Shown: positions 517 to 22,155 of the stretch, piece by piece | How the letters are laid out: the number at the start of each line of letters is the position of its first letter | Numbering within the stretch: the stretch's first letter is position 1 | From: a virus | Reading direction: 5' to 3' (one strand) | Length of the DNA stretch: 25,252 nucleotides | Virus record (IMG/VR): IMGVR_UViG_3300009428_000064 | Span: 1-25,252 of that record | The notes under the pieces: model-generated | The model's input: the letters and a program-made list of their open reading frames with translations, nothing else | Databases searched by the model: none | Told to the model about the DNA's origin: nothing | Program-made: the position numbers and the translations under genes

Positions 517-1098
517 ATGACTATTAATGAAAAGCTCGCCACAATTCAAACCAAATTTAAATCTAAAAAAAGTAGATTTAATGCTTTTGGTAAATACTAT
601 TTTAGAAGCGCAGAAGATATTTTAGAAGCTACAAAACCATATCTCTTAGAGCTGGGGGTATCGGTAATTATAAATGAGCGAGTAGTTGAACTCGACAGCT
701 CATTTCCTATGTTAGAATCTAAAGCTACGCTTTCCGATGGTGAGAGTAGTATTTACAGCACAGCAGTGGTAGGAGTTGATTTGGACCAAAAAGGTATGCA
801 AATGCCCCAAAAATTTGGTTCTGCGTCCTCTTATGGTAAAAAATATGCTCTAGGTAATTTATTTTTAATTGATGATACTCAAGATAGTGACGCTACTAAT
901 GATCATAAGCCACAGATGAAAAAGCCAACTCAATTAGAGAACAAAGACTCTTCAGGCGTTTTTAATAAAGCTTTAGACTATGTTAGAGAGGGTAAGAATT
1001 CCCCTGATCGACAAGTAAGATTAGAAGCTGTGAAAGATAAGTACGGAAACGAAATAACATCTATTGAGTTAGCTAAACTTAACGTGGCGGTAAAATAA
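517..1098 (+). CDS. erf: ERF-family single-strand annealing protein
   Basis: This 193-aa protein belongs to the ERF superfamily of phage recombinases, which anneal complementary single strands during recombination and genome repair. The N-terminal half (about residues 1-125) has the family pattern: a helix, then FNAFGKYYFRSAEDILEA, alternating strands with an SS..Y.T.VVG stretch, and a terminal helix QKFGSASSYGKKYALGNLFLI followed by an acidic D-D-x-Q-D-S-D segment. The C-terminal third is charged and probably flexible. The next gene overlaps its stop by one base (TAATG), and a PD-(D/E)XK exonuclease follows 167 nt on, giving the usual exonuclease/annealase pair. The domain reading is firm; in vivo pairing is inferred. 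Confidence 0.88.
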   Translation: MTINEKLATIQTKFKSKKSRFNAFGKYYFRSAEDILEATKPYLLELGVSVIINERVVELDSSFPMLESKATLSDGESSIYSTAVVGVDLDQKGMQMPQKFGSASSYGKKYALGNLFLIDDTQDSDATNDHKPQMKKPTQLENKDSSGVFNKALDYVREGKNSPDRQVRLEAVKDKYGNEITSIELAKLNVAVK

Positions 1099-1268
1099 TG
1101 CCGTACGAAGTTAACTATCATCTTCACGACAGACATAAAGCTAAGAGGCCTGCACATTGGAAACATATATGTAAGGAATTTCTTACGAGAGATGAGGCTG
1201 TGATTTTTGTGAATAGAATATGTGATAATGTAGCTGTTAAATCAATAAGCTTAACCCAAAAAGAATGA
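1098..1268 (+). CDS. Small coupled protein between ERF and exonuclease (56 aa)
   Basis: This frame of 56 codons starts at an ATG sharing one base with the ERF stop (TAATG) and ends in TGA within ATGA, overlapping the exonuclease start by 4 nt. Both junctions are classic translational-coupling overlaps, and the frame fills an otherwise unexplained 166-nt gap, which makes it very likely real. The protein is basic and His-rich at the N terminus (HLHDRHK, residues 8-14), then has KEFLTRDEAVIFVNRICDN (26-44), a helix-forming stretch, and a short strand-like end. No family is recognised. Its place between annealase and exonuclease suggests a small partner of one of them, but this is only context. 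Confidence 0.75.
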   Translation: MPYEVNYHLHDRHKAKRPAHWKHICKEFLTRDEAVIFVNRICDNVAVKSISLTQKE

Positions 1269-2041
1269 AAAACGTATCTAAAATACTCGAAGAAAAAACA
1301 GGTAAAAGCTATCTGTCTTATTCATCAGTAAAATATGCCCTTCAAGATATGCGTCTCTTTGAGATGTATATGAAAGGACAATTAAAAAGGACATCAACAG
1401 CATTAGAGTTCGGCTCTATGTATGATTGCTTATTGTTTGAACCACATAAGTTTAATGATAGATTTCTTGTACTTAATGAAAATGAAATACTTCAAGAGAT
1501 TGGTGGTAAAAAACCTAAGTCTACAAAGCTTTACAAGGAGTGGAAAGAAGAACAAGGACAAGGAGAAAAGGCTTTGGTGACTTTGGAAGATCATAAACAA
1601 GCTATGGAAATGATAGATAGACTTGACACTTGCGGTGTTAGGGATATTTACCTAAAAGGAAGCTATCAAATAGAATTCAAAGAAGAGATAAATCTTTTTG
1701 ATGACTATGAAGGTATTGTTGTAAGAGGATTCTTAGACTGCCTGGGTGATGGTTTTATATCAGACAGTAAGAGTTCTAGAGGGGCAAAATCGTTCCCTAG
1801 AGATGTGATCTCTTATTCTTATGATATACAAGCATACTTGTACAGTAAAGTGTTTGACATACCCGATTTTTACTGGGTTGTACAAGAAAAAGCGTATCCG
1901 TATTTACCTGCGGTATACAAAGCTTCGGACAAAACTCTTGGGTTCGGAGAAGCAAAGTTCAAGAAGGGTGTAAGAACTGTTCTTGAATACTTTGAAAAAG
2001 ACAAAGCGTCTGATAAATTTTATTTACAAGGGGAAATTTAA
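1265..2041 (+). CDS. PD-(D/E)XK exonuclease (RecE/DUF3799-like)
   Basis: A 258-aa protein with the layout of phage RecE/RecB-like exonucleases. The N terminus has the YSSVKYAL helix (residues 19-26) and LEFGSMYDCLLFEP (47-60), equivalent to the usual G-x-x-x-H-x-x-LL-x-P motif but with Asp where His is common. The core shows VRGFLDCL with D158, ISDSKSS with D167 and K169 (the D-x-K pair), and YDIQAYLYS with Q189 in the C-terminal helix, as in the QxxxY motif. It should digest one strand of dsDNA ends to give ssDNA for the ERF protein. Its start overlaps the 56-aa gene by 4 nt. The H-to-D change is the one unusual position. Confidence 0.85.
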   Translation: MKNVSKILEEKTGKSYLSYSSVKYALQDMRLFEMYMKGQLKRTSTALEFGSMYDCLLFEPHKFNDRFLVLNENEILQEIGGKKPKSTKLYKEWKEEQGQGEKALVTLEDHKQAMEMIDRLDTCGVRDIYLKGSYQIEFKEEINLFDDYEGIVVRGFLDCLGDGFISDSKSSRGAKSFPRDVISYSYDIQAYLYSKVFDIPDFYWVVQEKAYPYLPAVYKASDKTLGFGEAKFKKGVRTVLEYFEKDKASDKFYLQGEI

Positions 2042-2046
2042 TAATT

Positions 2047-2310
2047 ATGAGTGAAGAAAGAAATGTATATATAGGTTTCGTTAGTGAGATGAAGCAGTTT
2101 GACAGTGGTGTCAAGAAGTGGGGTATTTCATTTAAAGAAACACAATTAGAAGAGCTTAAAAAGTATCTTACTAAAAGTGGGAACGTCAATATGGACTTAG
2201 TTGTCAAATCTGATGGCGGTGCTTTTATATCAGTAGTTAACCCTCGTGTTACTACTAAATATAATAGTAGCCAAGGAAATGTAAAAACTGAGGAGGCTTT
2301 GCCGTTCTAA
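2047..2310 (+). CDS. Small ssDNA-binding-protein candidate with SSB-like tip
   Basis: An 87-aa protein starting 5 nt after the exonuclease stop. It is predicted to be strand-rich: NVYIGFVSEMKQF, KKWGISFK, VNMDLVVKS and AFISVVNPR could form a small OB-like barrel, followed by a polar Ser/Asn/Gln linker and the terminal residues EEALPF. That end resembles the acidic-x-L-P-F tip by which bacterial SSBs recruit partner proteins, although only two acidic residues precede it. With the exonuclease and ERF genes just upstream, an ssDNA-binding role is reasonable. The fold is not proven by sequence alone, and the core is shorter than a typical 110-residue SSB OB domain. Confidence 0.5.
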   Translation: MSEERNVYIGFVSEMKQFDSGVKKWGISFKETQLEELKKYLTKSGNVNMDLVVKSDGGAFISVVNPRVTTKYNSSQGNVKTEEALPF

Positions 2311-2486: not shown

Positions 2487-2653
2487 AGAAGATATTTGTA
2501 CAAATGAAAAATATAAATAGTAAGTACGAAATAATATATAATGAAAAGAATAAAGAGTGGAACCTACAACGTGAAGGATTAACAATCTTAAGCGGAGATA
2601 AGGAAGGTTGCAAGAATTATTTTAATTATATAGTGTCATTGACTGTGTATTGA
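2483..2653 (+). CDS. Small unknown protein (56 aa)
   Basis: The frame could be extended upstream to a GTG at 2462, but the ATG at 2483 overlaps the previous stop as ATGA, the same coupling seen elsewhere in this operon, so I choose 2483. The 56-aa product begins MKKIFVQMKNI and reads as short strands: a KYEIIYNEKNKEWNLQ hairpin and a LTILSGDK turn, then a helix KEGCKNYFNYIVSL. It may be a compact beta-beta-alpha fold. No family is recognised. The next gene starts in its last codons. Confidence 0.55.
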   Translation: MKKIFVQMKNINSKYEIIYNEKNKEWNLQREGLTILSGDKEGCKNYFNYIVSLTVY

Positions 2654-2943
2654 AAAAAGGTCAAGAAATATTTGAGCATTATTGTAAAATCTTTTGGCAG
2701 ACTAAAAAGGGAAATTCTTTTTTAAACCATAATAAAGGAAGAGAAATATCTCCATTTATCATTCTTACAAGAGCTAAGAATCTATTAGATATGAATAGAC
2801 ATTCTGACACTATAAAGTATGTACGGAAGATTGCTAAGATTCCAAAGACCGCTATAAATATTAGAGTTGTAAAAATTTATAAAACAAAAACAATTTCCAG
2901 GTCAAGCTGGTATAAAGAAGAAGACTATGATAACGAATTTTAA
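2650..2943 (+). CDS. Unknown basic protein, TTG start (97 aa)
   Basis: This 97-aa basic protein most likely starts at a TTG whose bases overlap the previous stop (TTGA); the first in-frame ATG lies about 47 codons further in and would discard much of the frame. It contains helix-like stretches (QEIFEHYCKIFWQT; ILTRAKNLLDMNRH) and a Lys/Arg-rich second half with the KIAKIPKTAINIRVVKIYKTKT segment split between turn and strand. No family is recognised. It overlaps the DnaA-like gene by 17 nt in another frame, so the two are probably translationally linked. A nucleic-acid role is guessed only from charge and position. Confidence 0.55.
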   Translation: MKKGQEIFEHYCKIFWQTKKGNSFLNHNKGREISPFIILTRAKNLLDMNRHSDTIKYVRKIAKIPKTAINIRVVKIYKTKTISRSSWYKEEDYDNEF

Positions 2944-3475
2944 ATTAAATGCTGAGTCCGTATTTGAACAAGTGTCTGCTGTTTGTGGGGTGAGTGTTAT
3001 GAGAATGCAAACAAAAGGAAGACATCGTGATTCAGTAAGAGCTAAGAGAATGTTCTGCGCTATATTGAGAGAGAACACTAAAATGACTTTTTTAGAGATA
3101 GGTAAACTATTAAATCAAGATCATTCTACTGTTATACATCACATAAACAAGCACAAATCAAGCTTAGTAAAGAACAAAAAAGGTAACTTTGTAGATGTAG
3201 AGTATGCAGAAAAATATAAAGAAGTAGATGACATATTAAATGAACGAGTCAGCGTAACTAATCATCATTATATTTTTACGTACAAAATAGAAAAAGAAGA
3301 CAATCGACGCATACTTCTCCCTAGTAGGTTAAAAGGCTACGTTAGAATATTTAAACTAGACCCTTGTGAAATAGCTTTTGAGTGTGTGGCTTCATCGTTT
3401 ATACACGCAATAAACACTATGTCTATTAGAGAAATATTTGTAGACAGAGAACTACTAAAAGTAGAAAAAGTTTAG
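2927..3475 (+). CDS. DnaA domain IV-like DNA-binding protein with unknown C-terminal half
   Basis: A 182-aa protein. Residues about 8-77 match the DnaA C-terminal DNA-binding domain: a first helix (ESVFEQVSAVCGVS), R-x-R-D-S-V-R-A-K-R like the R-x-x-x-x-x-x-A-R basic helix, then FLEIGKLLNQDHSTVIHHINK, equivalent to the DnaA signature where D-H-S-T-V contacts the DnaA box. There is no AAA+ ATPase part. The C-terminal half (about 90-182) has strand-like segments (HHYIFTYKIE, CEIAFECVASSFI) and is unassigned. The gene lies 1 nt before the primase-helicase. It could bind an origin and help load the helicase, or act as a DnaA-box repressor. Domain confidence is high; the role is open. Confidence 0.82.
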   Translation: MITNFKLNAESVFEQVSAVCGVSVMRMQTKGRHRDSVRAKRMFCAILRENTKMTFLEIGKLLNQDHSTVIHHINKHKSSLVKNKKGNFVDVEYAEKYKEVDDILNERVSVTNHHYIFTYKIEKEDNRRILLPSRLKGYVRIFKLDPCEIAFECVASSFIHAINTMSIREIFVDRELLKVEKV

Positions 3476-3476
3476 G

Positions 3477-5255
3477 ATGGAGAAAGTAACAATGTTTCCC
3501 TCTGTTATTAAAACGGACGAACCCCACTATGTTCTTTTGGAAAACTCTTTGAAAAGGATTATAGAGGGAAATTCTAAAAATATAATTGAAGAAATAAGAG
3601 CTGGAGATAAGAGCAAAAAAAAGACTCTCCCCATCACTCTTTTCTCAGGGGTTTTTAAAGGAAGGAAAGATGAAGATATATTAGGTCATAGTGGTCTTAT
3701 TATATTAGACTTCGATCACATAGACACAGAGTCTTCTAAAGCTTTATTATCTACAGATAAATTTGTAAGAGCTTGTTGGATATCTCCATCGGGTGATGGT
3801 CTTAAAGTTCTTGTCAAGATATCAAATCCAGAAAGACATCGTGATCATTTCAGGGCTTTACAGACTTACTTTGAGAAAACTTATGGACTAGAAGTCGATC
3901 CTTCTGGGATTAATGAAGCTAGAGCTTGTTTTGAGAGCTTAGATCCTGATCTAATATATAATGAATCAAGCGATAAGTTTGGAGGGATGTTGTCAGAGTC
4001 TTCCGAGAGCCAAACAGCAGTTTCATCTGATCTATATACTGATTATGAAAAACTAAGTATAGCTTCTAAGATGATTCGCAGATCTGAAGACGGTGACAAA
4101 CATAATACATTACTTAGGGCTTCGTTATTGTGCGGAGGGTATATAGCTGTAGGTAGGATGGAACGGGACGAGGTAGAGCGTGTTCTATTAAGGGAGATTC
4201 AAAAAATGTCTAGTGTTGATGATATTGAACTCGCTAAGAAAACAATTACTGATGGTATTGAGGAAGGGAAGCGAAAGCCTATTAAAGAAACGCTAGAAGA
4301 TGAGCAAAGGATTAAACGAGAGATGCGTATCAATGATGGAGATATGTCATTTATATCTTCCGATAATCAGGATATGGAGTGGATTAATAAATTTGCTAGA
4401 GGAGACATTGCCAGGGGACTTACTACAGGCTCCCGTTTAGATGAACATTTTCTATTTAAAAAAGAATTTACAATTATAAATGGACATAGTAACGTGGGTA
4501 AAACAACTATGGCTATGTATCTTATGGTAACATCCTCAGTTCTACACGATTGGAAATGGATAATATACTCTTCAGAAAACAAGACTGCCGCAGTAAAGAT
4601 GAAGCTGATGGAGTTTTTGGTGGATGTACCTATTAATCAAATGCATTACGAAGAAAGAGTTGCCGCATACAAGTGGATCAATAATCATTTTACTATTATA
4701 AGCAACGAAGAGGTTTACAGCTACACAGATCTTTTAGTGTTTGCAGAAAAACTTTTAAAGCAGAAAAGTTATGATGGGTTTTTAATAGACCCTTATAACT
4801 CTTTAAAAATAACTATGAGTAATAGCTTGCTTTCATCTCACGAATATCACTATGAAGCCGCATCAGAGCTGTTAACATTTAGTAACGCTAACAACATAGC
4901 TGTGTGGTTAAATACTCACGCCATAACAGAGGCGGCAAGGAGGAAGGGTATGGATGGACTTCAGCCAGCTCCTTATGCAGAAGACACAGAAGGGGGCGGT
5001 AAGATGGTTAATCGTAGTGATAATTTCTTGACTTTTCATAGAAAAATTATGGCTCCAGAGTTTGATTTACGAAACACAATGGAGGTTCACGTAAGAAAAG
5101 TTCGATCACAAGAAACGGGAGGAATGCCAACTAGTTACGATGAGCCTGTATTGTTTGAGATGAATGCTTCCAAAACTGGATTTAGAATATACCCTATGGG
5201 TGACAAGAATTTCAAGCCCTTATCATTAGATTCAGGTAAGTTTGACCTATCTTAG
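3477..5255 (+). CDS. Primase-helicase: VirE-N/BT4734-type primase fused to DnaB-like helicase
   Basis: This 592-aa two-part replication enzyme starts 1 nt after the DnaA-like gene. Residues about 1-165 resemble the VirE-N/BT4734 primase-like domain of Bacteroidota elements: LDFDHID with D78 and D80 as probable metal ligands, SPSGDGLKVLVK (S103-K114), and EVDPSGINEARACFESLDP with D141 and R149. A helical linker (about 190-275) follows. From about 310 a RecA/DnaB-like ATPase has Walker A GHSNVGKTT (336-344), a SSENK motif, Walker B GFLIDPYN with D438, and NTHAITEA (sensor-like), with VRKVRSQE near the end as arginine-finger candidates. It would unwind the fork and make primers. The fusion is intact, with no frameshift. 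Confidence 0.88.
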   Translation: MEKVTMFPSVIKTDEPHYVLLENSLKRIIEGNSKNIIEEIRAGDKSKKKTLPITLFSGVFKGRKDEDILGHSGLIILDFDHIDTESSKALLSTDKFVRACWISPSGDGLKVLVKISNPERHRDHFRALQTYFEKTYGLEVDPSGINEARACFESLDPDLIYNESSDKFGGMLSESSESQTAVSSDLYTDYEKLSIASKMIRRSEDGDKHNTLLRASLLCGGYIAVGRMERDEVERVLLREIQKMSSVDDIELAKKTITDGIEEGKRKPIKETLEDEQRIKREMRINDGDMSFISSDNQDMEWINKFARGDIARGLTTGSRLDEHFLFKKEFTIINGHSNVGKTTMAMYLMVTSSVLHDWKWIIYSSENKTAAVKMKLMEFLVDVPINQMHYEERVAAYKWINNHFTIISNEEVYSYTDLLVFAEKLLKQKSYDGFLIDPYNSLKITMSNSLLSSHEYHYEAASELLTFSNANNIAVWLNTHAITEAARRKGMDGLQPAPYAEDTEGGGKMVNRSDNFLTFHRKIMAPEFDLRNTMEVHVRKVRSQETGGMPTSYDEPVLFEMNASKTGFRIYPMGDKNFKPLSLDSGKFDLS

Positions 5256-5259
5256 ATGA

Positions 5260-5637
5260 GTGGAAAGTGATTATGAAGAACTTGAACTTACGTTACCTAA
5301 ACCCCCTAGCCTCAATGTTTTCTATTCGGGAAGGCATTTTATGGTTCGTAAAAAATACAAAGAAGAATATTGGAAACATATTGAGACAGCTCTACAGTCT
5401 TTCGACAGATTCTATATGGAGCAATTTGCACTTGATGTTTCTTTTAACTGCCGCTTTGATGTTGACAACGCTATATGTTGTAGCAAGTTTCTTGCGGATT
5501 ATTTGCGAAAGTTTGATTATGTTAAAGACGATAACCCAAAACACTTTATTTCACAGTCGACTACCTTCAACGAAAACCTGGAGAAAAACACCTTCAGAGT
5601 GAAAATAAAAGTTTATGGATTTAAAACAATTGAGTGA
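5260..5637 (+). CDS. rusA: RusA-like Holliday junction resolvase
   Basis: This 125-aa protein has the length and motif pattern of RusA nucleases, which cut four-way junctions as dimers. Seen in order: PKPPSLNVFYSGRH at the N terminus, a basic KKYKEEYWKHI helix, then RFDVDNAICCSKFLADYLRKFDYVKDDNPKHF in three parts: D-V-D-N (the acidic metal-binding pair), K-F-L-x-D-x-L, and the later D-D. The end returns to strands (FRVKIKVYG). The best start is GTG at 5260; the ATG 4 nt earlier is out of frame and stops at once. It begins 4 nt after the helicase stop. A longer overlapping frame at 5267 was rejected because only this frame carries the motifs. Confidence 0.8.
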   Translation: MESDYEELELTLPKPPSLNVFYSGRHFMVRKKYKEEYWKHIETALQSFDRFYMEQFALDVSFNCRFDVDNAICCSKFLADYLRKFDYVKDDNPKHFISQSTTFNENLEKNTFRVKIKVYGFKTIE

Positions 5638-8416: not shown

Positions 8417-11400
8417 TTACTTTATGTCTTCTATGTCGAATTTCTTAAACGACTTTTTAAATCTTAACATCTGAGCTTTTTCTAAGTTCTCTAAATACTC
8501 TTGACGCTCTGCATTTTCTGTTCTGTCTTTTAACTTTCTGATCTTTCTTAATCTAGAAGAAACATCTTTACTAATGTACTTCATTCGAGATACAGAAATC
8601 TTATCTTTTTTATTTAGCTGTCCGCTTTCAGCCTCTTTAGTCAATTGATTTATTAGCATTACATTATTGTAGTATTCAGAACGATCTTGATAGTCATTTG
8701 TTTGCCCCATAAATATTCTATAGAAAGGAATCTCTCTTGCTTCAGGCAATTCTCCTTCAGTAACTTTTCTTAATGATCTTTGGGTTCTTCCAATTGTTTT
8801 TCCAGCACCTCCTGTAAACCATTCAAAAACAAAACCCATTTTGTCTGGGTTAAGATCAATAGCACCAGGTCTAAATTCAGATCCTCCACTAGCTTTATTT
8901 AATGCTTTAGTCCAAGATTCAAGATTTTTAAACCTATCCCTTCCTAACTCAGAAGCTGGTCTTGGTGTTTTAGACCAAGGGTTTTCTTCACTATATATAG
9001 TTCTTCCAAAAAAGTTTTCGTTGGCAATTAAGCTGATAATTGGCTGACCAAGAGTAGGTGCTAATACTTTAAATATATAAGCTGTAGCATCTGACCCATA
9101 TGAAGGAAAGTTTAAAGGAGAAAATGATCCAAGTGATGCAGTAAATATATCCCCTAGAACTTCACCTTTATCTGTAATTCCTTGATTAGCGTTCATCAAA
9201 GAATTTCCTATCACATAAAAAACATTAAGACCATAAGGGAGTGGGACCTTAACGTAATCACCCTTTTTTTTACTTAAAGGATTCATAATAATAAGATTTC
9301 TTTCACGAACAAATTCAGGTATCTTAGAATAATAAGACTCACCGTCATCATCATCTTCACTCATCGATTCATTAATGATAGACATAACCCCACCAAACAC
9401 CGCTAATCCTGCGGCAAGCTTTTGTGAGTTAGTAACTTTAAGTTGTTTCTTACCTGTCTTTTCATTGAATTCAAACTGTGGCTTTAATGTTTTTACCAAT
9501 CTATTGGTTCCTTGAATAGAAGCGTTAAAGAAAAGATACAAAGAGTTAATAGTAGTACCGTATTCACCACTCCTATTAAAGTTTACAGTTAATTCTTTAG
9601 CTAATTCAGCGGCCTTTTCTCTAGATACTCCAGCTTCACGAGCTTCTATATAAGAAGAAAGACGGATTCCATTTTCTACAGATGTGTTTACCCTTTCCGC
9701 AAAATCTTTGGCCGCTTTTATACTGCTTTCTTTATTCCCTTCAACAAGATTTTTTATGTTAGATTTAAACTCTTCAGGAGACCTAGAATAAAACCATTCT
9801 GTCTTACCACCATCCGCAACAAACTCCGTATAGTATTTTTCTTTGGTATTTAAATCCTTAGTTTTTTTACCTTCCACATTATATATAGCTTTAATAGAAG
9901 GAAGAACCCCAGAAAGAACTTTACCTGCTAGTCCTTTAACTTTTGCTTCATTGAGAACACCACCCTTATTTGTCTCTTCACCTACAAGGTTAAATAAACC
10001 AGCTTGTATATCTCTAGCAAAGTTTCTAAATATAAACTCAGGATCATATGTAGTTATCATTGAGCTTAAAAATCTATTTAAACCAGCCACATATCTAATG
10101 ATGGGTTTCATATCACCTGGGTCAAACACGGTAGTTCCCTTCATTGTTTCTGCCATTCTTGGGTCTGAGAACTGTATGAATTTACTTTCCCCATTTATCA
10201 TAACCCTTAATACCCCGCTATCTTTTTCATTAGACTGAGCATTAAAACTACTAAGTTGTTCTTTGTTTTTTGGTTCTAAAACTGACCAAACACTTTCACC
10301 ATCAGCACCAACTATAGGGTTTTCTTTAACTAAATTAAATAACCTTTGAAGAACTTTATTTTTATTTCCTTCAATAATAGTATTCTGAAGATTGTTTATA
10401 GACTCACTAACAGCATCTCCTGATTCACTTTCCCTTCCCTTAGCTTCTCTCTGATTAAAAACCTTAAATCCTCTACCAGACTGAGTTCGTACTATTTTAT
10501 TCTCTTTAAGATTAGCAAACCCTGATAACGGAATGTAATTAGGATACTCTATAGCCCATTGAGATACCTGCTCTTGGCTTACCAAGCCAGTCTTAACTAA
10601 TATATCTCTTCTTGCTTTATTTATATCTTGAATAGATTCAATTGCATCTCTAATCTTTTTATCTGCATTTTTAAGATTAGGACTTTGAGCTTGCTCCTTA
10701 GTGAAGCCCAACTCTTTTTCAAGAATTTCTTGAGCTTTTTTATCGGACATACCTGATCCTTCTGTGTTTACGTTCTTGCTGTTTTTTGTTTTTTCAAGTA
10801 TACTTTTATTTCTATCTTGAGCAAAGAAAGCTGTGGCAATTTGATCTATTTGATCTAAAGTTTTACCGCTTTTTTTAATAGCTTCAGCCGTTGCTATTTC
10901 CAAGGGATTTATAATCTTTTTTAACTGATCCTGAACCTTACCATCTAAAGTAGACAGAGCGTTTTTAAAATCAGAACTCAAGCTCAAACGCCCTACAGAT
11001 TCTAAGACTTTATTTTGAAGTTGAATTATATCTTCATATTTATCTATGACGCTTCTTCTAAATATACTTAAGTATTCAGCGTATTTACCTTTCTTCTCCA
11101 GCGTTATAACAGCTCCAGGAGTTTGAGGAGTAGTTACAGTACCATCTTCAGCAACAGTAGTTTCTTTAACTTGAGTTGTGCTTGCAGGTGTAGGTGTAGG
11201 CTTTTTGCTTATAGCTCTTCTTTTCTTAGGAGATTTCTTTTTCTTTGGTTTTCTTTTTCGTTTTACTTGATTTATATTATCTGAAATAAATTTGTCATAT
11301 TTAACCTTATCTACTGTGGATCCCTGTTTCCTTATGTATTTAATACCATCATCAATTGCTTGAGCTAAAGACTTACCTGCTAGATAAGCAGCTCTAACAA

Positions 11401-14071
11401 CTTTTAAAGAGTTGTTAGCCATAAATAAAGGTATACCTAGTGTTGCGTCATATGCGTTTCCTCTTGTTGAAGTAACCCTTATCGCTGCATCAAGAAATTC
11501 TATTATTAAATCTTTTGTATTGCTTGATTCATCTGATTCTGTTAACTCAATTTTTCTTTTATACAAAGACTCCAAGCGTTTTAAATCTGAATCAAGAGCA
11601 GTCGTTTTACTAGTAGTAGATTTATCTAAATCCTCTTTTATTAATTTTTCATATTCCTTTATGTTGTTATCGGCTTCTTGTATGAGCCTATTTTCTGTTT
11701 CAGTTTTTTCTTTTTTAAACTCATTTATAGCTTGCTGTCTAGATTTTTCATCTTTTATTCCAACTAGTTTCCCATCTTCTCTCATTTTAGAGACAGTGAA
11801 TGAGCCATCTTTCTTTTTAACTACTTGAAATATATTTTCTTTAACTTGAACTAAATCTTTATTCTTTTCTTCAGAAGCCATTTCTTCTAAAAAGAGAGCC
11901 TCTGCTTCCTTAAGGTCTCTATCTCCTTGTTTCTTTAAAGCATTAAGCTCCTTCTCTGTTTTATTTAATTCTTTTAATTGTTTTGAATCTCTTTCTTCAG
12001 TAATTACTTTAACTTCTTTCTTTATTCTAACGGGCCGTTCTTGTTGACTTTTTTTTATTTTTTTATATTCACCTAATTTTTCGGCTAATGCGTCTGTCCC
12101 AGAATTTACGGATAATGGCCCTTCGATTATTTCAATACCTTTTTCTGAAACTAAATCTACTTGATCATTACCTTGCTCGTCTTTTACTTGACCAATTTCT
12201 ATTATCTCATCTTCCGTTTCAAATACAATTGTATTTTCATTTTCACTGTCTATTTTTATAACACCTTCTTTGTTTTCAAAAATCCCTAGTTGATTTATGT
12301 TTGCTGTTAACCTTTCTCTTTCTATCTTCTCTTCTTGCTGTGCTTTATTTTCTGAATCTTGTTTTTTTTGAGCTTTATTTTCTCTTTCGATTTCATTAAA
12401 GGAAGATCTAGCTTCTGTATTTAATTTTTTCTGCTCTTTCTCTGTTTGATTAGTTTCTTTTTGTTGCAGATTTTTTTCCCTAGCTGCCTGTTTTATTCTT
12501 TCTGTGGCTGTAGGTTCTGGTGGAAAAATAATAGATTTAATTTCATCCATTAAAGCAATAGACTTTTGCTTTTGATATTCTCCAGGAGCACTTAATCTTA
12601 GTTTGTACTCTCTAGCTAATGTCTGTACATTTTCAAATTCAGTAAGACTCAAACTTAAAATCCTTTCCTTAAGCTTACTTTTAATTTCGTTTATACCTGA
12701 TTGTAATTTTTTAAATTCCCCATCAAGAAGTTCCTTTTTAGTTTCTTCAGGTACATTAGGTGAATTTAAATTATTTTTAGTTTCTGATATTTCTTTATTT
12801 AAAGATTGATATTTTTTATCATCAGATAAAATTTCTGTAGAGAAATCCTCAGCAAAAGAAACAATTTCATCAGAAAGCTCTTCTCTCTGCTCATCAGAAA
12901 GCCTATCTTCAGGAGAAGCATTTTTATTTTCTTCGTTAATTTTATTGTTTAAATCAACAATAGTTTGTTCAGAACCAGAAGGTTCTCCTTCTTGTTTTCT
13001 AGACTTAACGTATTCAGCTAAAATACTTGGAGATGCAGGTGCTAGTTCTGCAAAACTTTCTAAAAGAATATCTCTTACATCTATTTCATCACCCGATATA
13101 ACCTGACCTGAAAGTTCACCTGATCCACCTAACAAGGATTGAGCTCCCAATTCTGCAAGGACTGCCTTTCTTTTCACAGCGGAGGGTAGTGCTTCACCTA
13201 TTTTTAAACCTAGTGATTTTCTAGAACTTTTTGCAACAGCACCAGCAATTTTACCACCTGATCCACCAGATACAGCATCAAATAAAGCGATAGGTATGCC
13301 TCTTTTGTTTGCATACAATCTTGCTTTTTCCATAATGCTAGGGTTACTAAATGCATTAGATAAAGCTTCTTCATTAGTAGTATCAACGCCAGCTTCTTGA
13401 AGAGATGACATTACAGCATTAGCATACTCTATGGCGTAAGAAGTACCTCCAGCCAATCCCGCAAAACCTCCTGAAACACCGCCTACAACTGACCCTATTG
13501 CTGTACCTATTGGTCCTCCAATAGAACCTGCCACAGCCCCTATTCCCTTACCACTAGCAGCCCCGACAGCAGCTTCTGTTAATGCAGATGGAGCAGCAAC
13601 ACCCATACTGATAAATGACTGAGGAACTGTCCTTAAAACATCTAAAGCAAAACCACCAATAAGGCTATCGCTGTAAAGAACATCTCCTTCTTTAGGTTGG
13701 TTTTCTTGAAGGATTCTATTATAATATGAAATTTTTTCAAAGTCTGTAGATCCTTTGTCTATTAATTTAGCGAGTATTCCAGAAGCGACACCTGAGTTTA
13801 TAACCTTTTGAATCTCATTAGGGTCATCTGAAATCCATCTTGATTCAAATTCATCATCATCACTCCCCCCTAAAACAACTTCCTCTTCAACAACATCATA
13901 TCCTTTATATGAAGGCTCTTGTACTTGAGTTTGGGTACTTAAATATTCTTCAGCTTTAAACAATTGGTCTTCTGTAAACCTATCATCAGACCTTAAGTAG
14001 TCTAATACATTTTCAGGAGTGTCAACCTGTGATGCTTCCTGAAGCTTTTCGAAGAACTCTTCATCTTCCAT
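8417..14071 (-). CDS. Giant internal virion (ejection/cargo) protein with LPD38-like region
   Basis: A 1884-aa protein. After an acidic N terminus, residues 165-210 are a Gly/Ala zipper (GAVAGSIGGPIG, VVGGVSGGFAG) able to enter membranes, followed by YANKRGIPIALFDAVSGG (253-270), a pattern common in phage internal proteins. Residues about 370-900 are Lys/Glu-rich coiled coil. A very basic segment (about 936-955) and a Thr/Pro linker follow. About 1340-1530 (FRNFARDIQAG to SLYLFFNASIQGTNRLVK) resembles the Large Polyvalent Protein domain LPD38. It should be packed in the head and ejected with DNA, like T7 gp16 or crAss cargo proteins. No catalytic motif was recognised. It begins 1 nt after the 651-aa gene. 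Confidence 0.72.
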   Translation of the reverse strand: MEDEEFFEKLQEASQVDTPENVLDYLRSDDRFTEDQLFKAEEYLSTQTQVQEPSYKGYDVVEEEVVLGGSDDDEFESRWISDDPNEIQKVINSGVASGILAKLIDKGSTDFEKISYYNRILQENQPKEGDVLYSDSLIGGFALDVLRTVPQSFISMGVAAPSALTEAAVGAASGKGIGAVAGSIGGPIGTAIGSVVGGVSGGFAGLAGGTSYAIEYANAVMSSLQEAGVDTTNEEALSNAFSNPSIMEKARLYANKRGIPIALFDAVSGGSGGKIAGAVAKSSRKSLGLKIGEALPSAVKRKAVLAELGAQSLLGGSGELSGQVISGDEIDVRDILLESFAELAPASPSILAEYVKSRKQEGEPSGSEQTIVDLNNKINEENKNASPEDRLSDEQREELSDEIVSFAEDFSTEILSDDKKYQSLNKEISETKNNLNSPNVPEETKKELLDGEFKKLQSGINEIKSKLKERILSLSLTEFENVQTLAREYKLRLSAPGEYQKQKSIALMDEIKSIIFPPEPTATERIKQAAREKNLQQKETNQTEKEQKKLNTEARSSFNEIERENKAQKKQDSENKAQQEEKIERERLTANINQLGIFENKEGVIKIDSENENTIVFETEDEIIEIGQVKDEQGNDQVDLVSEKGIEIIEGPLSVNSGTDALAEKLGEYKKIKKSQQERPVRIKKEVKVITEERDSKQLKELNKTEKELNALKKQGDRDLKEAEALFLEEMASEEKNKDLVQVKENIFQVVKKKDGSFTVSKMREDGKLVGIKDEKSRQQAINEFKKEKTETENRLIQEADNNIKEYEKLIKEDLDKSTTSKTTALDSDLKRLESLYKRKIELTESDESSNTKDLIIEFLDAAIRVTSTRGNAYDATLGIPLFMANNSLKVVRAAYLAGKSLAQAIDDGIKYIRKQGSTVDKVKYDKFISDNINQVKRKRKPKKKKSPKKRRAISKKPTPTPASTTQVKETTVAEDGTVTTPQTPGAVITLEKKGKYAEYLSIFRRSVIDKYEDIIQLQNKVLESVGRLSLSSDFKNALSTLDGKVQDQLKKIINPLEIATAEAIKKSGKTLDQIDQIATAFFAQDRNKSILEKTKNSKNVNTEGSGMSDKKAQEILEKELGFTKEQAQSPNLKNADKKIRDAIESIQDINKARRDILVKTGLVSQEQVSQWAIEYPNYIPLSGFANLKENKIVRTQSGRGFKVFNQREAKGRESESGDAVSESINNLQNTIIEGNKNKVLQRLFNLVKENPIVGADGESVWSVLEPKNKEQLSSFNAQSNEKDSGVLRVMINGESKFIQFSDPRMAETMKGTTVFDPGDMKPIIRYVAGLNRFLSSMITTYDPEFIFRNFARDIQAGLFNLVGEETNKGGVLNEAKVKGLAGKVLSGVLPSIKAIYNVEGKKTKDLNTKEKYYTEFVADGGKTEWFYSRSPEEFKSNIKNLVEGNKESSIKAAKDFAERVNTSVENGIRLSSYIEAREAGVSREKAAELAKELTVNFNRSGEYGTTINSLYLFFNASIQGTNRLVKTLKPQFEFNEKTGKKQLKVTNSQKLAAGLAVFGGVMSIINESMSEDDDDGESYYSKIPEFVRERNLIIMNPLSKKKGDYVKVPLPYGLNVFYVIGNSLMNANQGITDKGEVLGDIFTASLGSFSPLNFPSYGSDATAYIFKVLAPTLGQPIISLIANENFFGRTIYSEENPWSKTPRPASELGRDRFKNLESWTKALNKASGGSEFRPGAIDLNPDKMGFVFEWFTGGAGKTIGRTQRSLRKVTEGELPEAREIPFYRIFMGQTNDYQDRSEYYNNVMLINQLTKEAESGQLNKKDKISVSRMKYISKDVSSRLRKIRKLKDRTENAERQEYLENLEKAQMLRFKKSFKKFDIEDIK

Positions 14072-17061: not shown

Positions 17062-20000
17062 TTAACTTAGATTATTAGCTAGATTAGACTTAGCAAAAAT
17101 TAAATTCACAGCATACACTTCTAGTGGTGTAGTTAAATTAGAAGTAAGCTTAGTTTTTATATAATAGTCCCTCATAGGATCTCCCTCAATAGGAGAAGAA
17201 GCTATTAAAACTATCTCATCATTTGTTGAAACTTTACCAATCACACTAACATTACAAGTTAATTCTTTTTCGCCACTTACACTTACAGCAGAAAGACCTA
17301 ATGGATTTAATGCGTTTCCGTTTATTTTATACAATGCTGTGCCGCTTATAGACCCACTCTCTCCTAGAGTTCCAAGAGGAAATGACATATTGTTAATGGC
17401 ATTCTTAAATGTGACTTTAGTAACATCTCCCGTACTTGTAGTTGCAACAACACCTAAACCAAATATTTCTGATGTTCCACTTACAGAAGTAATACTAGCT
17501 GTAGATGTTGTAGAGATAGCTCCAGCAGCTAATGTTGAGTCTTGATGTATAGGTGCATAATAGAACCCTTCCTTTTCCTCAAAAACTGAGGAAGCTATAG
17601 TAGATGTTTGAGTTGTATTATTTAAAGTACAAGACCAAGATCCACTATCACCTTCTACACTTATTGCTTCATAAACCTTAACCATAGATGGATCTGCATT
17701 TGCAACAGCTTCAATAATACTAGGTCCCGCTACACCGTAAAATGTATTTCTTGCTGTAGTTGAATTATGCTCATATAGCTTACCTGCTTTAAACGTATAT
17801 AGTTTGTTAGATAAGGAACATATATCTTCAGCTATATAAGAATATCTAGAATTCCACTGAGGTTTTTTTAGATCATATGCTATAGTAAAAGCATTTAATG
17901 TTACAGCACTTTCAGTTAAAGTTAAAGTAGTATCATCATTCACTAAAGTTAGTTGATTTGTACTTTGACTCAAAGTACCTTGTCCAAAAGCGGTAGTTGC
18001 CTGAGTAGTTAAAGTAACTTGAATTTCACTTAATTGAGTAAGTTGATTAGTTGGAGATAGACTTTCTGCAATTCCTAATATTGGGTTACTTGTCTGAGTG
18101 TCCGCAATTAAAAGACCTGATCCTGACTCGTTAAATTTTTCTTGATCTAAATTAAAAGTATGTGGATCGGTGTCCCAATCATAAGTTAAAGCATCATCAT
18201 ATATAACCTCGCTCTCCACAAAACCTACTGGATTGTCGTCAGTTTTTACTTTAGCTGTAGATGTAGCTCCTGTGAGATTATCTTCAATAGTCAATGTAGA
18301 TGTAGTAAGAGCTGGAGAACTTATTATATATTCATAGTTTTCTCTATCGATACCACCAATATATCTTCTGTTTACAGCTGTGGCTAGGATTGAAAACATT
18401 CTGCTTGTAAAAAATGAATTTACCAATTGCTCACTTATAACAGAAAGTCCTGATTGTGGTTGAATACTTAACACCTTACCCGCTCTATTGTCCACAAAGT
18501 AAGCATTACCCCTATATGATGCTATAGATTCAGGATTATTATTACAACCGTAATCTCCAACATAATATCTAATAGGCCCTAATACTTTTTCAGTAGCTGT
18601 AATTAAATCATTAGCAGAACCAGTTTGAATTATATTCCTACTAACAGGAATAACTCCTGCTCTTCTTTCTTGTATAACATACATACTCTCATCATAAGAA
18701 ACCAATCCTCTTATTGATCCGTATTCATATGACATATCTTCATAGTTGACAAGCTGTAGGTTAAAAGATGATAAGCCTAAATATTCACTACCAGTTATAA
18801 ACTGATCAGAATAAGTTATTGATCCATACCTTTTAATTCTTCTAGCGTCTGGTAAGTAAGGAAATATTCTTCCTTTAGAAGTGTAGTCTGATGGGTAAAA
18901 ATCACTTACTCTAAAGTCTTCTATAAAGTCCACCAATGCGTTTTGAGTAGTGGCTAATAGTTGATTTTTCTTTTCATCACCATAATCAGGAGAAGCTCCT
19001 ATAAAATTTGTTCTTAGTCTAAAATAAGAGTCCCCCTCATTCAAAGTCATAACAGCAGTTCCAGATGCATTATCTACCGTTACAGCTTTTACTTCTGCAG
19101 CACTCCAGGTTGAAACTGAAACTCCGTAAAACTTATAACTATATCCTGTTTCATCGTTATTTTCCATAACGTTACCAACAGCTATAGCCCTATTAGGGGA
19201 AGCGTCTTCTACAATTCTATCTCCTTTATATATTTTTTGAGTAGAGAATGCAACAACACTGTTTGTTACTGCATCGTAACTTATTATTTTAATATCTGCC
19301 GTTGTTGATGGTCTTTGTGTCCCTAAAACTCCGTTTGTAACAGGGAATGAAGTTCCTATTTCATAGTAAACTTCTGCATCTGTCATTAGATTAGGTCTGT
19401 ATATTTCTATCAAACATTTTTTGTTCCAATTAGAATTACCATCAGCTATAGAACTAACATCAAAACCCAATGCTGATTTTATTTCTTCAATTACTATAAA
19501 ATCTCCTGTAGTATTTAATATAGCTTCAGGGCTACTTCTATCTAATAAAGGATTCTTTAAAGGGTCTGCTGTTAATGTAACAAAATTCACAACCCTAAAT
19601 TCTATATTAGATTTTAAATCATCATCATATCTTACTATCCTTAAACGATCTCCCTCTGCAAAACCATAATTGGTTAATGCACCCATTTGATTTACGTAAG
19701 AGTTTTGTTTTCCTTGAAGAGTATTAAATGATAAGTAAATATTTTTAGTAGATGAAAAACCTCCTTGATTACTTTGATCGTTAAATGATAGATAAGCCCC
19801 ACCAATACCGTACTGTATTTTGTTTTGATTAGTTCCTTTACCTATATAAACAGGAGAATATCTTTCAGCGTAATTAGGTGCGCCAATTTGGTTTAATCTA
19901 ATTGTTATATCAGAAAATCCTGTTAAATTATTTTCTAATGTTCTACCTCCTACAGGTTCAATATATACGCTAGGAAACTTTTGAACACCAGAAGCTCTTC

Positions 20001-22155
20001 CTCTATTGTCAAAATAAACTAGTCCTAGTTGATGAGACGATCCTCCTTTAAAAGATTTAGTTCCATTAAGTTTTGTCTTGTCTATTATAAAAGACCCCCC
20101 TTGTTGGACAGTTGCCCCAACTCTGTTTACTTGACCATTCGTTTTATCTGAGTTTCCGTCTGATGTTCGTTTAATAATAGTACCTCTTCCGTTGTCTATA
20201 TTAGTGTATTGAAACGGAGTCATTTCCTCTCCTTTTGAGTTAACGCCTTCAATAAAATCAAAAACAGAATTTTGATTAGAAGGATCAATTACAGAAGTTT
20301 GATTTTGACCCGTAGTGTATTTATCTACTTTTAATCTTAATCTTTCAATAGACTTTTTAAATACAGAAATATTTGTTCTTTCATTAGGTTCAAAACCACT
20401 ATTGGTTAAAGAGGCGTATCCATAACCACTAAATGCCGCACTATTTACAGAAAATGAGTTATTACTTCCAGTTGAAACTTGTACATTACTAAATCCTGAA
20501 GATCCACCTTGTGGTGTTGCTTGAATAGGATAGTCTTTTTGGATTGCGTTAACAATAATGTTGTGAACTTCTTGACGATTAACTGTTCCTTGTGGAAGTA
20601 AAATTTGTTTTCTTACTTGAATTCCACTAGTATTTATTTTAACACCTCCACTTTTAATTATCACAATAGAACAAGATTCTTCTTGTGTATCAGCTGTATC
20701 TTTTTGCGTTATATAATTTAACGTTGGAGGAGATATAATCACCCCATCTACGTTAGGACCTACAGTTTTATTTTGAAAATCAAATTTAAGACCAGCACTT
20801 GCGCCAGCTACATCATTAACCTCATCGTTATTTCCTCCTACTGTTGAAGTAGTTAATATATTAAATGTTAAAGCTCTAAAAGCATTAAAAATAGGCGCAA
20901 TAATGTTTGGAACTAACTCATTAGCTAAAACAACATCTCCATCATTGCAAGAGAAATCAAGAAAAATTTCAAAATCTCTATCTAAAGGAAATGTCAAACC
21001 AGTAAGACTTAGATCTATATCTATTAAAGAATCATCACTAGCGTTTTGAGTAACTGGTATATTAAAAACACTAGGCTTTTCATTGTAATTTGCTAACACA
21101 GTTGGTTCTATTGTGTCATTAGGAAAACCTTCTGTATACCCCCCATAAAAAAGTCTACCACTTGCAATAGCTTGACTATCAGCAACTTGAGGAACGTTGT
21201 CATATACTTTGTCAGCTTGTTGAGCAGGTAAAGGAATATATCCCTGATCATCACTAAAATTAATAGTGCTTGTTGTACCATTTACATTATTAGAAATGTC
21301 AGCTATAACTTCAAAAGCTTTAGTTCCTCCTCTACGTGCTACAATTTTAATTTTTTTTACGTCAGCAACACTATGATTTACTGTAATATTTATTTGATTA
21401 AAAAAGTTTCTTTGTTCATTGTTTATAAAGCCATCTTTTAATTGAGATGCTGTAGTGGACATTTGAGTATAAGGGCTCAAAGCAGATTCTTCACCGTCTA
21501 TATATTCATATAAGTAAGCAAACTGAAAATTCTCTTCAAATATATTATTTATAGGAAGGTTAGGATTATTGTCAAATAACATTACAGGTGGCTCCAAAGG
21601 TGGCTGTTTAGCTGTAGTTATATAAAGCAATTTCTGCTCATCAGTTCCACTTAAAAAGAAATTACCTGGATAACCTCCAGCACCTGTATAAGAAGCTTCA
21701 GACAGTGTAACGTTTATTTTTTTAGGAGCAGAATCCGAACTATTGAAGTATATAAGTATATCCTCATTGGTATTTGTAAGTAAAGAGGCTTGTACGTGGT
21801 CAGTTAAACTAAACTGTAATACAGAATCTTGATACACGATGTACAGCTTTTTACCGTTTTGATCATATCTAAAAATAGTATGATTAGCGTTACTGTTGTA
21901 TACAAAATAATACAGCTGTCCTTTTGTCTCGTCTCCAATAGATCCAATTGTAACATTAGTACCTGTTGGCATCGTGCCGTTTTCTATAGTTCCAGAAATA
22001 TCTTGATTGCCATAAGCGTTTTTAATAAGTAAAGCATCACCATCGTCATCAACAGACACACGAAGGTTCTGAGCGTCACTCATCTGAACGCTAGTTATAA
22101 TCCTTTCGTCATCATCTGTATTTATATATCGGGGCAATAGCTTATCAATAGCCAT
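17062..22155 (-). CDS. Muzzle/tail-tubular (gp12-like) giant tail protein
   Basis: A 1697-aa beta-rich virion protein. The N terminus (IDKLLPRYINTDDDERIITSVQMSDAQNLRVS, broken by turns) is a typical start for tail-tube/nozzle proteins of Bacteroidota podophages. Repeated features of this group are EEN-FQFAYLYEYIDGEESALSPY near 210-230, GLVYFDNRGRASGVQ (about 700-715), a GNAYFVDNRAGKV blade-like motif and GIDRENYEYIIS (about 1265). These fit the beta-propeller-like muzzle of crAss-like phages, related to P22 gp10/T7 gp12. It would form the lower short tail and close the DNA channel. The last ~500 residues are Thr/Ser-rich and may be a peripheral module. The gene lies 3 nt after the 247-aa ring protein. 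Homology class is inferred from pattern, not search. Confidence 0.72.
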   Translation of the reverse strand: MAIDKLLPRYINTDDDERIITSVQMSDAQNLRVSVDDDGDALLIKNAYGNQDISGTIENGTMPTGTNVTIGSIGDETKGQLYYFVYNSNANHTIFRYDQNGKKLYIVYQDSVLQFSLTDHVQASLLTNTNEDILIYFNSSDSAPKKINVTLSEASYTGAGGYPGNFFLSGTDEQKLLYITTAKQPPLEPPVMLFDNNPNLPINNIFEENFQFAYLYEYIDGEESALSPYTQMSTTASQLKDGFINNEQRNFFNQINITVNHSVADVKKIKIVARRGGTKAFEVIADISNNVNGTTSTINFSDDQGYIPLPAQQADKVYDNVPQVADSQAIASGRLFYGGYTEGFPNDTIEPTVLANYNEKPSVFNIPVTQNASDDSLIDIDLSLTGLTFPLDRDFEIFLDFSCNDGDVVLANELVPNIIAPIFNAFRALTFNILTTSTVGGNNDEVNDVAGASAGLKFDFQNKTVGPNVDGVIISPPTLNYITQKDTADTQEESCSIVIIKSGGVKINTSGIQVRKQILLPQGTVNRQEVHNIIVNAIQKDYPIQATPQGGSSGFSNVQVSTGSNNSFSVNSAAFSGYGYASLTNSGFEPNERTNISVFKKSIERLRLKVDKYTTGQNQTSVIDPSNQNSVFDFIEGVNSKGEEMTPFQYTNIDNGRGTIIKRTSDGNSDKTNGQVNRVGATVQQGGSFIIDKTKLNGTKSFKGGSSHQLGLVYFDNRGRASGVQKFPSVYIEPVGGRTLENNLTGFSDITIRLNQIGAPNYAERYSPVYIGKGTNQNKIQYGIGGAYLSFNDQSNQGGFSSTKNIYLSFNTLQGKQNSYVNQMGALTNYGFAEGDRLRIVRYDDDLKSNIEFRVVNFVTLTADPLKNPLLDRSSPEAILNTTGDFIVIEEIKSALGFDVSSIADGNSNWNKKCLIEIYRPNLMTDAEVYYEIGTSFPVTNGVLGTQRPSTTADIKIISYDAVTNSVVAFSTQKIYKGDRIVEDASPNRAIAVGNVMENNDETGYSYKFYGVSVSTWSAAEVKAVTVDNASGTAVMTLNEGDSYFRLRTNFIGASPDYGDEKKNQLLATTQNALVDFIEDFRVSDFYPSDYTSKGRIFPYLPDARRIKRYGSITYSDQFITGSEYLGLSSFNLQLVNYEDMSYEYGSIRGLVSYDESMYVIQERRAGVIPVSRNIIQTGSANDLITATEKVLGPIRYYVGDYGCNNNPESIASYRGNAYFVDNRAGKVLSIQPQSGLSVISEQLVNSFFTSRMFSILATAVNRRYIGGIDRENYEYIISSPALTTSTLTIEDNLTGATSTAKVKTDDNPVGFVESEVIYDDALTYDWDTDPHTFNLDQEKFNESGSGLLIADTQTSNPILGIAESLSPTNQLTQLSEIQVTLTTQATTAFGQGTLSQSTNQLTLVNDDTTLTLTESAVTLNAFTIAYDLKKPQWNSRYSYIAEDICSLSNKLYTFKAGKLYEHNSTTARNTFYGVAGPSIIEAVANADPSMVKVYEAISVEGDSGSWSCTLNNTTQTSTIASSVFEEKEGFYYAPIHQDSTLAAGAISTTSTASITSVSGTSEIFGLGVVATTSTGDVTKVTFKNAINNMSFPLGTLGESGSISGTALYKINGNALNPLGLSAVSVSGEKELTCNVSVIGKVSTNDEIVLIASSPIEGDPMRDYYIKTKLTSNLTTPLEVYAVNLIFAKSNLANNLS

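Follow-up and report, generated by a model that had tools for sequence, protein, structure and literature searches.

A phage protein built of DnaA domain IV and an orphan tail, encoded directly before a primase-helicase gene

P0001 is a 182-residue protein encoded on a 25,252-base virus fragment from IMG/VR, here called the window, which is the whole stretch of DNA that was analysed. It consists of a complete DNA-binding domain of DnaA (domain IV) followed by an orphan C-terminal tail, and both its profile match and its fold place it in PF08299. Bacteria normally initiate replication with DnaA, whose motor domain is considered essential for opening the origin. P0001 carries no AAA+ motor and does not qualify as a full DnaA initiator. 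We see about an even chance that it is a motor-less origin-binding initiator or a helicase adaptor. This reading is based on the observed domain IV fold, the conservation of DNA-reading residues, the lack of an AAA+ match, the position of the gene in a replication/recombination module and the repeated linkage of such genes to helicase genes. DNA binding, a binding site, an interaction with the helicase and any function of the tail are inferred. The points of interest are the orphan tail and an apparent exchange with another initiator.

The P0001 ORF (2927-3475, plus strand) is intact and starts with ATG. Its first 17 nt overlap the upstream ORF (2650-2943), and a single base (3476) separates its stop codon from the ATG (3477) of the 592-aa primase-helicase, confirming the one-nucleotide gap claimed in an earlier reading of the letters alone (the sequence-only reading). 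Two more contigs represent the same phage, with 99.98% identity over the compared parts, and the three copies show two mismatches across the 9.2 and 9.5 kb compared. The coordinates of P0001, its parts and its neighbours are summarized in Table 1.

Table 1. Position and supporting evidence of P0001, its parts and the neighbouring genes in the window
Feature	Position	Strand	Evidence
Erf-type single-strand annealing protein	517..1098	+	PF04404 2e-28
Exonuclease VIII-like nuclease (DUF3799)	1265..2041	+	PF12684 3.5e-16; phrog_412 1.6e-36
87-aa protein, acidic C-terminus EEALPF	2047..2310	+	sequence; relatives end in DLPF
o97, 97-aa orphan gene	2650..2943	+	beside primase in sister phages
P0001, 182-aa DnaA domain IV protein without AAA+, orphan tail	2927..3475	+	ORF; PF08299 E 1.1e-13
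Complete DnaA domain IV, residues ~7-108: basic loop, helix-turn-helix, last helix	2945..3250	+	pLDDT; VIA Z
Arg32, equivalent to E. coli DnaA Arg399, minor-groove reader of the basic loop	3020..3022	+	alignment to 1j1v; PMC5742627 (excerpt)
Residues 64-71, Q-D-H-S-T-V-I-H, start of the recognition helix (E. coli 432-439)	3116..3139	+	alignment
Orphan tail, residues 113-182 (~70 aa)	3263..3472	+	pLDDT ~50; matches only the same phage
592-aa primase-helicase, BT4734-like N-terminal domain and DnaB-like C-terminal part	3477..5255	+	PF08800 4.2e-21; phrog_18375 4.3e-132
RusA-like Holliday junction resolvase	5260..5637	+	phrog_1682 9.2e-8

The match of P0001 to DnaA domain IV is far beyond chance. 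PF08299 (Bac_DnaA_C) covers residues 10-75 with 51.4 bits against a gathering cut-off of 31.5, and Foldseek places the P0001 model on 3pvp_B with an E-value of 5.2e-6. The model was obtained with AlphaFold on an alignment of 50 sequences (prediction without an alignment gave a mean pLDDT of 34.7), and its pLDDT is about 97 at residues 11-100, 86 at residues 101-110 and about 50 past residue 111. The nearest solved structures are domain IV of Mycobacterium tuberculosis DnaA with DNA (3pvp_B; model residues 7 to 108, VIA Z 16.6, 95 aligned residues, 1.2 A) and that of E. coli DnaA with DNA (1j1v_A; model residues 7 to 106, VIA Z 16.1, 93 aligned residues, 1.1 A). These ranges identify the helix at residues 91-111 as the last helix of domain IV. 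The DnaA DNA-binding domain recognised in the sequence-only reading is thus borne out by profile and fold, and its extent has to be revised from residues 8-77 to about 7-108 so as to include this helix. Because helix 91-111 belongs to domain IV, the tail comprises residues 113-182; the unassigned C-terminal part exists as proposed, and is about 70 residues long instead of 90, its supposed first 20-25 residues being the last helix of the domain. MarR-type regulators show a weak fold similarity to the helix-turn-helix part (Z up to 5.7), which may reflect a common arrangement only.

Domain IV accounts for about 100 of the 182 residues. Pfam searches at E-values up to 1 returned only Bac_DnaA_C and a weak HTH_38 match and no AAA+ family, and so domain III of DnaA is absent and the earlier claim that no AAA+ domain follows holds. 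Domain I, the helicase-binding N-terminal domain of DnaA, is absent as well, with domain IV starting around residue 7.

DnaA domain IV contacts bases through eight positions (399, 423, 432-435 and 438-439 in an excerpt of PMC5043019). Arg399 of E. coli DnaA reads the minor groove, and the R399A and T435M variants are defective in box binding, as described in excerpts of PMC5742627. Four of the eight positions are identical in P0001 when it is aligned to 1j1v (chain position + 373 gives E. coli numbering): Arg399, Asp433, His434 and His439 correspond to Arg32, Asp65, His66 and His71. Two are conservative (Thr435 to Ser67 and Leu438 to Ile70), and two are different (Pro423 to Leu56 and Arg432 to Gln64). 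The sequence-only reading had staked its assignment on residues that align with the DNA-binding residues of domain IV; these are present, and most of the base-reading ones are kept. In an alignment of 69 domains (67 taken from loci L001-L130, with three proteins left out, and two from MAG contigs), the position of Arg399 is R in 67 and K in two, position 433 is D in 62, and position 434 is H in all 69, a residue that the collection pattern itself required. Residues 65-71 of P0001 (DHSTVIH, positions 433-439) recur unchanged in the DnaA protein of an Ekhidna MAG. In sister phages of the L009-L015 types, HH replaces DH at positions 433-434 and A occupies position 439.

With a pLDDT of about 50, a strand-rich tail as described in the sequence-only reading is plausible. 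Searches for relatives of the tail found none in GenBank phages and only the same phage in IMG/VR; nothing better than E 0.22 appeared among the ORFs of the fetched loci, and PDB sequences gave chance-level matches only (E 0.64 and worse). The structural comparisons returned one weak row that covers the tail, for aIF2 alpha (1yz6, Z 4.6, 70 aligned residues, 2.9 A), and weak Lrp/AsnC rows that span the helix-turn-helix and the tail (E 0.05 and worse, rmsd near 14 A). Because the pLDDT of the tail is about 50, nothing is drawn from these rows, and both likenesses were set aside. A known unrelated domain, which would have told against the sequence-only reading, was thus not recognised in the tail by sequence, and the tail model is poor.

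The sister proteins (L009-L021, L056-L057 and L140-L153) carry a C-terminal extension that differs in sequence from the P0001 tail. Used as a query, this extension matched 29 loci. When eight of them were extended, seven read through into DnaA domain IV and one was cut at the contig end; all 14 of L140-L153 have a domain IV HMM match, and the remaining loci lie on contigs already known for a domain IV protein. In these loci the sister extension was therefore not seen separately from domain IV. As a side observation, the 82,425-base contig behind L020, L060 and L153 holds two complete replication modules about 59 kb apart, each with its own domain IV protein, that of L153 being the same as on the 81-kb contig of L141; the 82,425-base contig may be a chimeric or two-phage assembly.

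The replication/recombination module of the window runs in the order Erf, exonuclease VIII-like nuclease, 87-aa protein, two small ORFs, domain IV protein, primase-helicase, RusA, a 74-aa ORF and a glycosyltransferase, and most of this order is kept in the sister contigs. The DnaB_C match of the primase-helicase (2.6e-4) is below the cut-off. Neither the 87-aa protein nor o97 matches a Pfam or PHROG family. The EEALPF and DLPF ends of the 87-aa protein and its relatives resemble the acidic tip of single-strand DNA-binding proteins, and the 87-aa protein is possibly SSB-like, judging from its sequence. The o97 gene lies between the domain IV gene and the primase gene in sister phages, an order that is swapped in the window, and its product is a possible helicase partner. 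Elsewhere in the window, a 1697-aa protein (17065-22155, minus strand) contains the C-terminal domain of a Crassvirus muzzle protein (PF25729, 1e-11), a hint of kinship with crAss-like tails, and a protein of about 1884 residues (8417-14068, minus strand) contains an LPD38 large-polyvalent-protein domain (7.2e-29).

Linkage of the domain IV gene to a helicase gene recurs in other phages. Relatives of the primase-helicase were collected from 44 loci, and 23 of them carry domain IV in the locus, mostly upstream; these 23 include L042-L045, where domain IV is seen by a weak HMM match only and two of the records have no PF08299 match. The other 21 loci comprise 10 that are truncated either in the primase itself or no more than about 1 kb from its start, and 11 with at least 1.2 kb upstream in which no domain IV was found. 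PF08299 found no match in two long records of 23.7 and 32.2 kb. In a group of relatives that have no domain IV in the locus (L028-L036), the slot is filled by small ORFs, among them a DUF3310-like one. A primase profile search of genome contigs gave three MAG contigs: domain IV lies about 30 nt downstream of a related primase-helicase in an Ekhidna MAG (L160) and 2.8 kb downstream in a Sphingobacteriales MAG (L162), and none was found on the 4.4-kb contig L161. The position directly before the primase-helicase therefore holds for the window and is not a fixed arrangement, as a member of the o97 family intervenes in most sisters and domain IV lies downstream in L038-L041, L160 and L162.

Taking all domain IV clusters together, a replicative helicase or primase-helicase is present in the locus of 14 of 23 clusters and within 1 kb in 11 of 23, as raw counts. 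Because five of these 11 clusters are close relatives of the module of the window, the number of independent cases is smaller than 11. Outside this family, DnaB is found beside domain IV in L070, L066 and L107. Nine of the 23 clusters have no helicase in the locus, some of them with about 5 kb on both sides. A survey of neighbours scanned 72 of 144 listed neighbouring ORFs.

The isolate with the nearest primase-helicase is Maribacter phage Panino (34% identity over 94%), which has the same module. The gene before the Panino primase-helicase is annotated as a replication initiation protein and matches phrog_428 (8.9e-23) and PF09524 (1.2e-16), and no PF08299 match was found in the 77-kb Panino genome. 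Conversely, phrog_428 and phrog_678 have no match in 12 domain IV-bearing records of the family of the window, and none in 14 family records; the positive controls of these searches, Panino and Tenacibaculum phage Gundel_1, were found. Since phrog_428 also matches seven of 14 unrelated control genomes, its single match in Panino leans on hmmscan and annotation as well. Searches with phrog_50 and phrog_186 carry no weight, as their positive controls were not found, and a search for a family A polymerase, with no hit in 15 records, is uninformative, as the annotated polymerase of Panino was missed too. Domain IV and the Panino initiator thus apparently swap places in the same slot, in a single case. 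The initiator idea gains support from this, because the slot in Panino holds an initiation protein of another family in a genome without domain IV.

The sequence-only reading had expected clustered DnaA boxes, and neither the window nor the 32.7-kb contig of this phage contains such a cluster. The motif TTATNCACA with up to one mismatch occurs at 20 sites in the window compared with 33.1 +/- 5.8 in shuffles, with at most two sites in 500 bases, a density reached by 50 of 50 shuffles. The 32.7-kb contig has 30 boxes against 32 for a reversed-pattern control, with no cluster. Among 19 sources searched with up to one mismatch there was no cluster either, the largest group (six, in L009) being reached by four of 30 shuffles, and exact TTWTNCACA gave 44 sites in 14 records against 36 for the reversed pattern, with no pair closer than 1 kb. 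Boxes are fewer than expected in all four genomes compared; ranked among 250 permuted motifs, their counts stand at 9 in pelagiphage HTVC204P, 34 in the window, 53 in Harreka_1 and 54 in tooticki6-1, extreme only in HTVC204P. With such weak ranks, depletion was set aside as a sign of host targeting. The first 8.5 kb of the window showed no enrichment of iterons over shuffles, and diverged iterons could escape this search; among nine loci none was enriched, the six copies in L060 exceeding its six shuffles and being reached by three of 40 further shuffles. Because no cluster of DnaA boxes is seen, the site of P0001 is probably not a canonical array like that of oriC. If P0001 binds phage DNA, it probably uses few or non-canonical sites within the 32.7 kb seen, and the origin may lie beyond.

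The statement that phages rarely carry domain IV alone with such a partner domain is refuted. An initial profile search turned up 166 relatives in IMG/VR, from which 80 loci were kept, forming 23 clusters at 45% identity. BFVD contains 73 domain IV models at E 0.001 or better, and the 50 matches listed of these 73 are all 99-218 residues long; by name, 22 of the 50 are DnaA C-terminal, one is a chromosome replication initiation protein, one is an HTH protein and 26 are nameless. Loci L001-L130 provided 70 distinct domain IV proteins, three of them from GenBank phages, and 66, of 75-208 residues, remained after four incomplete or weak ones were dropped. Thirty of these 66 have an N-terminal extension of at least 40 residues, 23 (P0001 included) have at least 60 residues after the HMM match, and 13 consist of the domain only. 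GenBank phages with a standalone domain IV include the pelagiphages HTVC, Skadi and Lederberg, Olleya phage Harreka_1, Tenacibaculum phage Gundel_1 and Flavobacterium phages tooticki and snusmum, in which such proteins are annotated as DnaA, as DNA replication initiation or as bacterial HTH protein. Excerpts of the literature name DnaA as a replication initiation protein of Polaribacter phages P12002L/S (PMC4615864) and list DnaA among the proteins of HTVC010P-related phages (PMC6811365). In the open-access full text covered, such phage proteins appear in annotation mentions only, with no functional study. Together, the 80 loci, the 23 clusters, the 73 BFVD models and the annotated GenBank phages make the rarity claim untenable. 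A prophage search gave no relatives of P0001 in genome contigs. The Ekhidna MAG mentioned above encodes two short domain IV proteins, one of 183 residues with a second HTH-like stretch (L160, 6097-6648) and one of 199 residues with a long N-terminal extension before domain IV and no AAA+-sized region (L173, 1426-2025, minus strand).

According to the reading that we prefer, P0001 would keep only the sequence-reading domain of DnaA, the ATP-driven motor having been lost. It would bind a candidate site in the phage genome and, via its tail or neighbouring proteins, would help to bring the phage primase-helicase to the origin. By analogy, it could work like a lambda O-type initiator encoded just before the helicase gene. 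Pelagiphage HTVC204P speaks for this reading, as domain IV is there the sole initiation protein annotated and the annotation names neither a helicase nor a primase or polymerase. Against it stand the lack of DnaA-box clusters and iterons, the nine clusters with no helicase in the locus, the 11 primase-helicase loci and two long records without domain IV, and the separate position of domain IV and the annotated replication protein in Harreka_1. The phages in which domain IV accompanies a separate initiator or loader (Gundel_1, L107 and L116) also count against it, and against the exchange inferred from Panino. In a more far-reaching version, which we hold to be tentative and rather doubtful, phages would have repeatedly detached the reading domain of DnaA to make a minimal ATP-independent initiator, in which the phage origin is marked by domain IV, while an exchangeable tail (in P0001 the orphan fold of about 70 residues) replaces domains I and III and loads the primase-helicase directly.

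It is also conceivable, but unlikely, that P0001 competes with or hijacks host DnaA by binding DnaA boxes of the host chromosome, thereby blocking or redirecting DnaA and freeing the host replisome for the phage. The DHSTVIH stretch and Arg32 match Bacteroidota DnaA of the Ekhidna MAG, the phage has no box cluster, box counts fall below expectation in four of four genomes, although only HTVC204P is extreme, and the missing AAA+ domain would be expected to give a dominant-negative form. However, conserved host boxes should not tolerate the divergence of reading residues seen in the sister phages of the L009-L015 types, the P0001 gene is embedded in a phage replication operon, and the depletion of boxes is not robust because the 32.7-kb contig has nearly as many boxes (30) as the reversed control (32).

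P0001 could instead assist an initiator or loader that escaped recognition, such as the o97 product, without being the initiator itself, an option that we regard as distinctly unlikely. It is consistent with phages in which domain IV is accompanied by other initiation proteins: in Gundel_1 these are an O-like protein and a DnaC-like loader, in L116 a DnaD-like loader and in L107 a nearby phrog_2562 initiator, with Lin1244-type proteins also represented among these phages. Sister phages, besides, retain o97 next to the primase. The absence of phrog_428 and phrog_678 from the 14 family records, with the positive controls found, argues against such a partner in this family. DnaA itself regulates transcription at some promoters, and a role of P0001 as a repressor or activator of the early region, using its DnaA-type helix-turn-helix, would fit a small HTH protein with weak MarR-type similarity; in Harreka_1 and the pelagiphages, moreover, domain IV lies in an early operon away from the helicase gene. 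Such a regulatory role is improbable, as the Z of 16.6 to DnaA domain IV is far above that to MarR proteins and linkage to replication genes recurs in several lineages. A phage family that retains the reading domain only, linked to helicase genes in many lineages and in one case apparently exchanged with an unrelated initiator, would provide a small system in which to ask which parts of initiation need the motor.

Compared with domain IV of DnaA (PF08299; 1j1v and 3pvp), P0001 has the same whole-domain fold of about 100 residues and keeps the equivalents of Arg399, Asp433, His434 and His439, with Gln and Leu at the places equivalent to E. coli positions 432 and 423. It differs from complete DnaA in lacking domains I and III and in its added C-terminal tail of about 70 residues. 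The gene of a lambda O-type initiator sits just before a helicase or helicase-loader gene. P0001 is alike in gene position, and in the origin binding proposed for it, but its DNA-binding family is different, no iterons were found in or near its gene, where diverged ones could have escaped, and O-like or initiation PHROGs gave no match to P0001 at E-values up to 1. The initiation protein of Panino is encoded in the corresponding slot, immediately ahead of a related primase-helicase gene, yet it is unrelated to P0001 by family profile. The sister proteins share with P0001 the combination of domain IV and a C-terminal extension, the same module, the same primase-helicase and, around the last helix, a conserved stretch NG..V...Y..K. 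Unlike P0001, they have only about 28 residues past the last helix, with a YRVVLY motif that is absent from P0001, and an o97-family gene between domain IV and the primase. In the pelagiphage proteins the extension is N-terminal, whereas it is C-terminal in P0001, and the tail sequence is not common to them. P0001 belongs to a known, little-studied kind of standalone phage domain IV protein, with which it shares its short length, the lack of AAA+ and a location in the early or replication/recombination region.
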